A stretch of DNA of 36,545 nt, from NCBI GenBank assembly GCA_937919085.1, contig CALFRN010000272.1:1-36545 (forward strand), written 5' to 3'. Made by a program: the position numbers and the translations under genes. The notes beneath the pieces are model-generated. The model had not been told where the DNA came from. It worked only from the letters and a program-made list of their open reading frames with translations, and did no database searches. The stretch is from an uncultured Reyranella sp. Its GTDB lineage: Bacteria; Pseudomonadota; Alphaproteobacteria; Reyranellales; Reyranellaceae. This document shows, one piece after another, positions 10,020 to 31,529 of this stretch (position 1 is the first letter of the stretch; every line of letters begins with the position of its first letter).

Positions 10020-13322
<3,303 letters not shown>

Positions 13323-16042: not shown

Positions 16043-17029
16043 ATGACTGCCTCACCCGTTCCCGGCGTTACGCTCGAGACGACCAGAGCCAACAATATCA
16101 ATATGCGCTACGCCGAATCCGCCCCCAAGGGGTCGGGGGGCCCGTTGGTTCTGTTCTGCCATGGTTGGCCGGAGAGCTGGTATTCATGGCGCCATCAATT
16201 GCTGGCCGTCAGTGCCGCAGGCTTCCGTTGCGTGGCACCCGACATGCGTGGCTACGGCGGCACCGAGGCGCCTGAACCCATCGACCAGTACACGCTTCTC
16301 CATTTGGTCGGCGATATGGCTGAACTGGTGAAGGCCCTGGGCGAAACCAAGGCGGTGATCGTCGGCCACGATTGGGGCGCGCCGGTTGCCTGGCACGCCG
16401 CCCTGTGGCGGCCCGATCTCTTCACCGCCGTCTGCGCCATGAGCGTCCCCTACGCTCCGCCCGGCTACGTCGACATCCTGACCGCGCTGGAGAAACTCGG
16501 AATCAACGACTTCTACCTGCAGTATTTCCAGAAGCCCGGCATCGCCGAGGCCGAGTTGCAACGGGACATCCGGGAGGCTCTGCGGCGCCTCTACTACACG
16601 GCAGGCGGTGACCTCACCGAGTCCGGCAAGGGTTTTGCCCGGCTGATCGACGGCACCCTGCTCGGCAACACGGTCGATCCCGGGAAACTGCCGGCGTGGT
16701 TGAGCGACGCCGATCTCGACTACTACACCAGCGAATTCTCGCGCACCGGCTTTCGCGGCGGCCTCAACTGGTACCGCAACCTTCGGCGCAACTGGGAACT
16801 TGCCGGCCCCTGGCGCGGCCAGCCAATTCGCCAGCCGTCGCTGTTCGTCGCCGGCAGCCGCGACGGCGTGCTGCGGTTTCCCGCCGCCAAGAGCCAGCTC
16901 GAGGCCTATCCGAAGACCCTGCCCGGCCTGCGCGGCAGCCACATCCTCGAGGGCGCCGGCCATTGGGTGCAGCAGGAGCAGCCGGCCGCGGTCAACAAAC
17001 TGTTGATCGACTTCCTCAAGGGGCTGTGA
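16043..17029 (+). CDS. Soluble epoxide hydrolase-type alpha/beta hydrolase
   Basis: Protein of 328 residues. The oxyanion motif HGWPESW is at 40-46, the nucleophile Asp110 lies in GHDWG, the acid Asp274 in SRDGVL and the base His307 in GAGHW. A cap domain between about 145 and 250 carries tyrosines in NWYRN and YLQYF that would activate the epoxide oxygen. Aspartate at the nucleophile position marks an epoxide hydrolase or haloalkane dehalogenase rather than an esterase; the cap tyrosines favour epoxide hydrolase. The substrate is unknown. It follows znuB by 5 nt without a strong ribosome-binding site, so its link to zinc uptake may be only transcriptional. Confidence 0.85.
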   Translation: MTASPVPGVTLETTRANNINMRYAESAPKGSGGPLVLFCHGWPESWYSWRHQLLAVSAAGFRCVAPDMRGYGGTEAPEPIDQYTLLHLVGDMAELVKALGETKAVIVGHDWGAPVAWHAALWRPDLFTAVCAMSVPYAPPGYVDILTALEKLGINDFYLQYFQKPGIAEAELQRDIREALRRLYYTAGGDLTESGKGFARLIDGTLLGNTVDPGKLPAWLSDADLDYYTSEFSRTGFRGGLNWYRNLRRNWELAGPWRGQPIRQPSLFVAGSRDGVLRFPAAKSQLEAYPKTLPGLRGSHILEGAGHWVQQEQPAAVNKLLIDFLKGL

Positions 17030-29965: not shown

Positions 29966-30700
29966 TTACGCCCAGCCGCCGGCGTGCGGCAGGACGTGGC
30001 CGGTGATGAAGCCGGCGCCGTCGGAGCACAGGAAGCAGATCGCCGCGCCGAGCTCGTCGGACTTGCCGAGGCGGCCGAGCGGGATCTGCGCCGTCATCTT
30101 GGCCATCGCGTCGCGGTTGGCCAGCAGGGCCGGCGGGAAGTAGTCGGGGTTCTCGACATAGTTCGAGCCCACGGCATTCACCGTGATGCCGTCGTGGCCC
30201 AGCTCCCGGGCGAGCGAGGAGACGAGGCCATTGGCCGCGGCCCGCGCCGAGACATAGGGCGCGTAGTTGGCGATGCCGCGCAGCGGTGCCGCCGACGACA
30301 CGAACACGATGCGCCCCGACTTGCGCTTGCGCATCGACGGCGCCACCAGCTGGGCGAGGTGGAAGGGCACCACCGCCATCGCCTCGAGGGCGTTGCGGTA
30401 GTCTTCCAGGCGGGCTTCGCCCAGCGGCGCGCGCAGGGCGGGAAAGGCGTCGTTGTTGACCAGGGCGTCGATGTGGCCGTGCCGCTTCAGCGCCAGTTCG
30501 ACCATCGTGGCGGGTTCGATGGCCGACAGCGCATGCGCGCCCTGGAACTGGGTCTCGTACTTGCGCCGCGCGCTGGGCGCCTCGAAGGCGGGATCGTGCG
30601 CCAGCACGGTGGCGCCCTGGGCCAGCGCCACGCGGGTCGTGCCGTAGCCGGCGAACTTCTCGACGTTGGTGATCAGGATCACCCGGTCTTTCAGCAGCAT
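29966..30700 (-). CDS. SDR-fold protein with halohydrin dehalogenase signatures
   Basis: Protein of 244 residues from the ATG at 30700, with AGAGGAA before it. It is an SDR fold, but the glycine-rich NAD(P) motif is missing. In its place is TNVEKFAG: T11-x4-F16-x-G18, the halide-site signature of halohydrin dehalogenases. The catalytic set is S136-x12-Y149-x3-R153, again the dehalogenase pattern, with Arg replacing the Lys of true SDR dehydrogenases. The line with HheC-type proteins is visible also at LAHDPAF, VNNDAF and KRKSG. These enzymes expel halide from vicinal haloalcohols to form epoxides, or open epoxides with anions. Substrate unknown. Its ATG lies 25 bp from the ubiE start on the other strand. 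Confidence 0.85.
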   Translation of the reverse strand: MLLKDRVILITNVEKFAGYGTTRVALAQGATVLAHDPAFEAPSARRKYETQFQGAHALSAIEPATMVELALKRHGHIDALVNNDAFPALRAPLGEARLEDYRNALEAMAVVPFHLAQLVAPSMRKRKSGRIVFVSSAAPLRGIANYAPYVSARAAANGLVSSLARELGHDGITVNAVGSNYVENPDYFPPALLANRDAMAKMTAQIPLGRLGKSDELGAAICFLCSDGAGFITGHVLPHAGGWA

Positions 30701-30725
30701 GGCGATTCCTCTAGGTTGCGGCCCC

Positions 30726-31529
30726 ATGAGCCGAGCCTCCCCCGACACCCCCGATCCTAGCGCGTCCGAGCCGGCGGCACAGGCATCCTTCGGCTTCAAG
30801 GACGTTCCGGCGGCCGAAAAGGCCGGAATGGTGCGCCAGGTCTTCGAAAGCGTGGCGCCGCGCTACGACCTGATGAACGACCTGATGTCGGGCGGCGTTC
30901 ACCGGCTGTGGAAGAACACCCTGGTCGATGTCGTGAACCCCCGTCCGGGCGAAAAGTTCCTCGACGTGGCCGGTGGTACCGGCGACATCGCCTTCCGCCT
31001 GCTGTCCCGCCAAACTGGGGGCAAGAGCGGCGAACCGGCCGACGTCACGGTCTGCGACATCAATCCGGCGATGCTGGCGGTGGGCCGCGACCGCGCCGTC
31101 GATCGCGGCCTGCTGCAGGGTCTCACCTGGACCACCGGCGATGCCGAGGCGCTGCCGTTTCCGGATCGCTCGTTCGACGGCTACACGATCGCCTTCGGCC
31201 TGCGCAACGTCACCGACATCGACAAGGCGCTGGCCGAGGCGCATCGCGTGTTGAAGCCGGGTGGCCGGTTTTATTGCCTGGAGTTCAGCAAGATGACGTC
31301 GGCGCCGCTCGGCCGCGTCTACGATGCCTATTCGGAACGGGCGCTGCCGTTCTTCGGTCGTCTCGTCGCCCGGGACGCCGAGTCCTACCGCTATCTGCAC
31401 GAGAGCATCCGCCGCTTTCCGCCGCAGCGCGAGCTGGCGCGGCGGCTCGGCCGCGCCGGGTTCGCCAATGTCGCCTGGCGCGACATGACGCTGGGCGTCG
31501 TGGCCCTGCACAGCGCCTGGCGGATCTAG
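30726..31529 (+). CDS. ubiE: UbiE C-methyltransferase (ubiquinone/menaquinone)
   Basis: Protein of 267 residues. It carries out the SAM-dependent C-methylation step of ubiquinone (and menaquinone) synthesis. The SAM motif FLDVAGGTGDIAFRLL is at about 78-93, the second motif around GDAEALPFPDRSFD (about 138-151), and the UbiE mark FGLRNVTDIDKAL (about 156-168) follows. The tail GVVALHSAWRI is typical. The TAG stop is directly followed by the ubiB ATG, so the two are coupled. The usual alphaproteobacterial divergent neighbour is mutM; here it is the dehalogenase-like gene with only 25 bp between starts. Confidence 0.97.
   Translation: MSRASPDTPDPSASEPAAQASFGFKDVPAAEKAGMVRQVFESVAPRYDLMNDLMSGGVHRLWKNTLVDVVNPRPGEKFLDVAGGTGDIAFRLLSRQTGGKSGEPADVTVCDINPAMLAVGRDRAVDRGLLQGLTWTTGDAEALPFPDRSFDGYTIAFGLRNVTDIDKALAEAHRVLKPGGRFYCLEFSKMTSAPLGRVYDAYSERALPFFGRLVARDAESYRYLHESIRRFPPQRELARRLGRAGFANVAWRDMTLGVVALHSAWRI

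Follow-up and report, generated by a model that had tools for sequence, protein, structure and literature searches.

A halohydrin dehalogenase family gene beside ubiE is a near-universal, constrained core gene of the Reyranellaceae

Introduction

Halohydrin dehalogenases (HHDHs) are used for making chiral building blocks. The earliest ones were found in strains that had been selected by enrichment with toxic halogenated chemicals (PMC4989007). A gene of an uncultured Reyranella sp. raises the question of what such an enzyme would do as a resident of an ordinary bacterial chromosome. The window analysed here is the whole stretch of 36,545 nucleotides that carries this gene, from a draft genome of 525 contigs and 4.9 Mb. 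We asked whether the encoded protein belongs with the known HHDHs or with the SDR oxidoreductases, how widely and how tightly the gene is kept, and whether its setting is that of a catabolic pathway.

Results

The window gene carries both HHDH motifs and lacks the SDR cofactor motif

The gene lies on the minus strand at positions 29966-30700 (ATG at 30700, stop included), and its uninterrupted translation gives 244 amino acids followed by the stop codon. Two motifs are described as diagnostic for HHDHs in a 2016 review (PMC4989007) and in a 2025 mutagenesis paper (PMC11976700), and pattern matching found both in the window protein. Motif 1, T11-N-V-E-K-F16-A-G18 (TNVEKFAG; 30647-30670, minus strand), stands in place of the NAD(P)-binding glycine motif of SDRs; motif 2, the catalytic triad S136-x12-Y149-x3-R153, reads SAAPLRGIANYAPYVSAR (30242-30295, minus strand). 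The SDR cofactor motif T-G-x3-G-x-G and the Y-x3-K pattern are both absent, which sets the protein apart from FabG-like enzymes. The initial annotation of this locus was exact in its coordinates, the length of 244 residues and the divergent orientation to ubiE; it had also placed both HHDH motifs at these residues and reported the glycine-rich cofactor motif as lost, as found here. Residues G18, S136, Y149, R153 and N180 are invariant in a 49-row alignment, in which T11 is kept at a level of at least 90%.

The window genome contains 66 other matches to the protein, from which 13 SDR paralogues were picked, the five best and others further down. Both HHDH motifs were missing from 13/13, the glycine-rich stretch was present in 13/13 and the Ser...Tyr-x3-Lys pattern in 12/13 (in paralogue L122 the glycine-rich pattern, TALVTGSG, was reported one register early). 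The two HHDH motifs are therefore more than chance matches. Homologous loci numbered 110, of which 107 could be tested, the fragments L073, L077 and L080 being cut off inside the gene; these 107 are not independent, since L081 corresponds to the window itself and certain genomes are represented by more than one record. Motif 2 was found in 107/107 and strict motif 1 in 94/107, including both motif 1 and the triad in all 53 loci where the gene is linked to ubiE. The 13 exceptions to motif 1 carry Trp for Phe/Tyr in eight cases and Ser for Thr in five. The Trp-type loci (L063, L064, L065, L069 and L089-L092, in some cases the same genome twice) read T-x4-W-x-G, as in TFATHWAG of L063, and have an intact motif 2; the published [FY] search pattern would therefore miss these eight homologues. 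Ser comes first in L056, L058 (SNVAKFAG), L060 and L086, which are Vineibacter-type, and in L106; the T7S variant of HheC has been reported active (PMC11976700).

Sequence, tree and model place the protein with A/C-type HHDHs

The nearest named relatives of the window are Reyranella, one at 99% identity (L001) and many more at 90-93%. When the protein was searched with phmmer against PDB sequences, 6a41 came first, matching over the full length, followed by HheC variants, HheA, then 8xxb and 7b73 (which we take to be D-type HHDHs), and finally FabG-type SDRs mixed with the HHDH 7wkq and HheB. Pfam matched two SDR families and nothing else, and the best 25 of 210 NCBIfam models included no HHDH model; all were SDR models and all scored below their cut-offs. 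A maximum-likelihood tree of 53 rows separated the 13 own-genome SDR paralogues from 40 HHDH rows with a support of 100/99, putting the window protein outside these true SDR oxidoreductases; the references in this tree were six HHDHs, of types other than HheE, F and G, and its SDRs came from the window genome. The window protein sits beside 6a41 in a 37-row A/C branch (support 82/92, below the tool's 95/80 mark), and HheB, 7b73 and 8xxb form a separate branch at 100/99. The branching order within the A/C branch is left unsettled by this tree; HheC and HheA2 fall together inside the alphaproteobacterial set, at an inner fork of weak support (85/75).

An AlphaFold model of the monomer, built from the 49-row alignment, has a mean pLDDT of 94.1 and a pTM of 0.92 and adopts an SDR-type fold. 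Compared with PDB chains, it gave a Z score of 39.5 to 6a41 over 244 residues at 1.0 Å, 33.7-34.4 to HheC entries (34-36% identity) and 32.7 to HheA (32-33%), and the top 11 structure matches were all 6a41, HheC or HheA entries. FabG (4nbu) scored 32.6, level with HheA, and therefore the fold alone cannot decide between HHDH and SDR. By sequence and by tree the protein groups with the known HHDHs, and the model fits as well, which supports its assignment as a probable member of the HHDH family, not an SDR oxidoreductase, much as the initial annotation had proposed. Tree position makes A/C, rather than B/D, the predicted subtype.

A close relative has been crystallised

The best match, PDB 6a41 (244 amino acids, released 2019), aligns with the window protein without gaps over the full 244 residues, and a direct count gave 219/244 identical positions (90%). 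The two share the motifs and the C-terminus, and the 25 substitutions by which they differ leave the motifs untouched. Because 6a41 is identical at 240/244 positions to L083, from a genome of the same genus, it probably comes from a Reyranella-type bacterium. Its depositors named it only 'dehalogenase' or 'Dehalogenation enzyme'. Searches of the open-access literature found no paper naming 6A41 together with HHDH, no paper on Reyranella and halohydrin, and, for alphaproteobacterial HHDH structures or mining, nothing on the Reyranella clade; for Reyranella and dehalogenase they gave two papers, both about bioreactor communities, and for HHDH and Rhodospirillales one soil paper. As a close relative is already crystallised, the window protein brings no new chemistry.

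The better known enzymes are more distant. HheB (4zd6), 7b73 and 8xxb share HHDH-type motifs and, in the alignment, a C-terminal GGW with the window protein, but are ~31-33% identical to it and shorter after strand 2. HheA/HheA2 (PDB 4z9f, 1zmo) resemble it in length, motifs and position in the A/C branch, but are 33% identical and sit on a long branch; their sources are Corynebacterium and Arthrobacter degraders (PMC4989007). HheC of Agrobacterium radiobacter AD1 (PDB 1pwx and variants) is like the window protein in fold (Z ~34), in both motifs and in the N-Y of the halide loop, and is 36% identical; however, HheC is longer, with 254 residues, and ends in a C-terminal extension of ~10 residues for which the window protein has no counterpart. 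In addition, hheC shares an operon with an epoxide hydrolase gene (PMC11976700), whereas the window gene has none.

The start regions of the HHDH gene and ubiE interlock

The divergent neighbour at 30726-31529 (plus strand) is ubiE, identified by NCBIfam model TIGR01934 above its cut-off, and 25 bp lie between its start codon at 30726 and that of the HHDH gene at 30700. A ubiE start at the CATG overlapping the HHDH start was considered and rejected, since the upstream frame is broken in several loci. Among 80 fetched loci, 53 (L001-L052 and L057) have ubiE divergent from and adjoining the HHDH gene, with the matches 0-158 bp apart; three of the remaining 27 are the fragments cut off inside the gene and 24 have no ubiE match. 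In L088, from a distant family, the stretch 2394-2897 is 33% identical to UbiE and lies divergent to an HHDH of 51% identity.

Upstream stretches were compared between the window and L001-L052 (n = 53). The conserved gap holds AGAGGAA (30706-30712, minus strand), which probably serves the HHDH gene as its Shine-Dalgarno site and occurs within the last 20 bases before the HHDH start in 48/53 stretches. Inside the 5' end of ubiE lies TAGGAT (30754-30759, minus strand), a weak candidate for the -10 element of the HHDH promoter; CTAGGAT was found within 140 bases upstream in 34/53 stretches, 37-68 bases from the HHDH start, where the N-terminal part of ubiE is otherwise variable. The tetranucleotide CTAG is scarce in the window, with 19 copies found and ~114 expected from base composition. 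The sequence CTAGGATC is conserved inside ubiE in 33/53 stretches. The first ten HHDH codons show extra synonymous conservation (seven codons counted), as expected if ubiE signals lie inside the HHDH gene. A longer gap replaces the conserved one in L026 and L046, and that of L026 holds the inverted repeat CTTGTTCGGCTG...CAGCCGAACAAG. The interlocking of the start regions offers a simple reason for the pair staying together. The gene may thus have been kept next to ubiE for reasons other than its function, and the case for reading the ubiE neighbourhood functionally is weakened.

The gene is near-universal in Reyranellaceae and held under strong constraint

The HHDH gene is a near-universal, strongly constrained core gene of the Reyranellaceae. 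Within the genus, a match at E<=1e-50 was found in 57/65 genomes (41/44 good ones); within the family, at E<=1e-30, in 66/75 genomes (48/51 good ones) from 5/5 genera. There is one copy per genome, the exception being a second partial match in draft G056. The three good genomes with no match indicate either that the gene may be dispensable or that those drafts are incomplete. A class-wide sample gave matches at E<=1e-30 in 50/387 genomes, 41 of them at 40% identity or more (three of these over part of the length only); matches below 40% may include ordinary SDRs, because the best SDR of the window genome itself scores 6e-25. The initial annotation had called such enzymes rare, a view that does not hold against these frequencies in family and class. 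Three genomes of one family (G155, G246 and G321, 1.6-2.3 Mb) each have two tandem HHDH-like matches 18-48 bp apart, 31-35% identical to the window query.

Selective constraint was compared by the Nei-Gojobori method over the window and L001-L052, with at most 300 random pairs per gene and 38-53 rows (53 for HHDH). The median pairwise dN/dS of the HHDH gene, 0.086, was the lowest of six neighbouring genes (ubiE 0.195, ubiB 0.161, a membrane gene 0.220, coaBC 0.162 and dut 0.132), and its median amino acid identity was 0.906 against 0.79-0.86 for the neighbours; NCBIfam models served to check the names ubiE, ubiB, coaBC, dut, nrdA, nrdB and asd. By both measures the HHDH gene is therefore under tighter constraint than neighbouring genes that are generally counted as essential.

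A recently acquired or mobile gene was rejected as an explanation: the ubiE side is fixed in 53/53 loci, and a search of 72,556 plasmid records at E<=1e-30 gave one distant match, a 32.8% identical Microbacterium gene. That plasmid, from Microbacterium sp. J1-1 of activated sludge, has features annotated as haloalcohol dehalogenase and epoxide hydrolase family protein, a classical catabolic setting in contrast to that of the Reyranella gene. Gene order varies on the flank beyond the HHDH gene, away from ubiE. Clustering of flanking genes within ~6.5 kb (~1.5 kb for many of the loci L081-L110; families in at least three loci counted) gave none common across genera, and flanking reading frames of the outgroups had neighbours common only to groups of like loci. 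A conserved neighbour as a clue to the pathway was thus rejected, none having been seen across genera.

A soluble epoxide hydrolase shares a probably old gene neighbourhood

The full reading frame at 16043-17029 (plus strand) codes for a soluble epoxide hydrolase with the alpha/beta-hydrolase fold (best PDB match 6unw, E=4.1e-91), in which the stretches HGWP, GHDWG, GSRD and GAGHW were read by eye; no NCBIfam model scored above its cut-off for this frame. It lies 12.9 kb from the HHDH gene on the opposite strand, and the two do not form an operon. Homologues of the hydrolase are present in 72/75 Reyranellaceae genomes and 51/51 good ones, and 26 of the 64 genomes holding both genes have them on one contig. 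The distance is 8.8-43 kb (median 16.8) in 22/22 such genomes of genus g1, the window included; elsewhere it is 29 and 35 kb in two g3 genomes, both with ubiE on a different contig, 67 kb in G070 and 120 kb in G072. A search of the HHDH flanks at E<=1e-10, covering up to 8 kb for L001-L080 and ~1.5 kb for L081-L110, found a hydrolase homologue in 0/110 loci.

Two other genes served as controls. The distance from nrdB to the HHDH gene is 0-8.3 kb in seven g1 genomes tested, ~3.5 kb in three g5 genomes, 55 kb in G070 and 198 kb in G068, with nrdB on another contig in G066; in the genomes tested, the nearer neighbour of the HHDH gene is nrdB in g1 and g5 and the hydrolase in g3. The large gene at 10020-13322, which no NCBIfam model named, remains close to the hydrolase in all seven of the g1 genomes tested; in three g5 genomes and G066, however, it is on other contigs, and in G068 it is ~260 kb off. 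Because nrdB is in the same neighbourhood, linkage alone shows no HHDH-hydrolase pathway, and because nrdB is nearer, the closeness of HHDH gene and hydrolase can be a remnant of the ancestral order of genes. Most simply, the genes once formed a common block that is breaking up differently between genera; functional coupling as something proven by linkage was rejected after these two controls.

Outside the family, a hydrolase homologue at E<=1e-60 was found in 11/44 HHDH carriers of the class sample versus 33/337 non-carriers (p=0.006, kinship ignored), leaving 33/44 carriers with no close homologue. Counting 11 weak or partial HHDH matches as non-carriers changed the figures to 8/33 versus 36/348 (p=0.025, kinship ignored), and four of the eight co-occurring genomes in this stricter test are of one family, f9. 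The initial annotation had pointed to an epoxide hydrolase 13 kb away that could act on the HHDH products. The enzyme and its distance stand, and the proposed relation, in view of the nrdB control, is plausible but weak: the hydrolase is a possible downstream partner, not an operon partner.

Discussion

We read the window protein as a predicted cofactor-free, chromosomal HHDH of the A/C branch with a standing cellular role, to the exclusion of an acquired pollutant pathway; we give this joint reading a probability of roughly 0.85. By analogy with HheC chemistry, Tyr149 would act as the base that takes the proton of a vicinal halohydrin, Arg153 would lower the pKa of Tyr149 and Ser136 would bind the halohydrin hydroxyl. 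The resulting alkoxide would close to the epoxide while the halide would depart into a pocket that occupies the former cofactor site, putatively formed by Phe16 and the Ser179-Asn180-Tyr181 loop; these positions were assigned by alignment to HheC, and Phe16 is within the stretch that holds the cofactor-binding glycines in SDRs. In the reverse direction, halide, azide, cyanide or similar anions would open the epoxide, and NAD(P) would take no part. The cellular need served might be, for example, the clearing or interconversion of endogenous or commonly met halohydrins and epoxides, and the family-wide soluble epoxide hydrolase may process the resulting epoxide.

The protein may instead use the HHDH fold for another natural reaction, such as opening or closing an endogenous epoxide in an anion-dependent manner, with dehalogenation as a by-product. 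We regard this as possible, though rather unlikely. A core gene with no catabolic neighbours found would suit it, the 2016 review leaves room for other physiological functions (PMC4989007), and PMC11976700 describes the compounds tested as probably not natural HheC substrates. However, the retention of motif 1 and the triad in every ubiE-linked locus is what one would expect of an anion pocket in use, and this explanation comes with no candidate substrate.

We consider it improbable that the gene belongs to a xenobiotic halohydrin or epichlorohydrin route that runs through the hydrolase 12.9 kb away, as HheC does in A. radiobacter. Such a route could draw on a true soluble epoxide hydrolase on the same contig, on the near-universality of both genes in good family genomes (48/51 and 51/51), on their constant closeness in the one-contig genomes of the same genus, on the 29 and 35 kb kept in two g3 genomes that have ubiE on another contig and nrdB 198 kb away or on another contig, and on the weak co-occurrence outside the family. 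Yet there is no operon and no hydrolase in any flank searched, nrdB is the closer neighbour in the tested genomes of g1 and g5, the HHDH and hydrolase genes are 120 kb apart in G072, and there is no plasmid setting; family-wide presence and tight constraint also fit a pollutant pathway poorly. An SDR oxidoreductase of the ordinary kind that matches the motifs by chance, as the SDR-only Pfam and best-25 NCBIfam results and a FabG fold scoring as high as HheA might suggest, was rejected by motifs and tree as very improbable, given the missing glycine motif, the replacement of Lys by Arg, the 13 paralogues tested that lack both HHDH motifs, the 100/99 branch and the 90% identity to a deposited dehalogenase.

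What the present analysis adds is the genomic context: the gene is core and constrained and has no catabolic cluster around it, which bears on the role of HHDHs in nature. An HHDH gene that is a conserved standard gene of a whole family, as opposed to an optional pollutant-degrading gene, is unusual. For enzyme work, the homologues provide a diverse alphaproteobacterial A/C panel, among them the Trp variants of motif 1, which escape the published [FY] pattern. For biology, a near-universal, constrained gene in a fixed place in the Reyranellaceae would make it possible to approach the natural role genetically, by deletion. Tentatively, and at somewhat less than even odds, A/C-type HHDHs may originally have been core housekeeping enzymes of Alphaproteobacteria acting in endogenous halohydrin and epoxide metabolism, with the catabolic HheA and HheC as late recruits; Reyranella would then be the place to look for the natural substrate.
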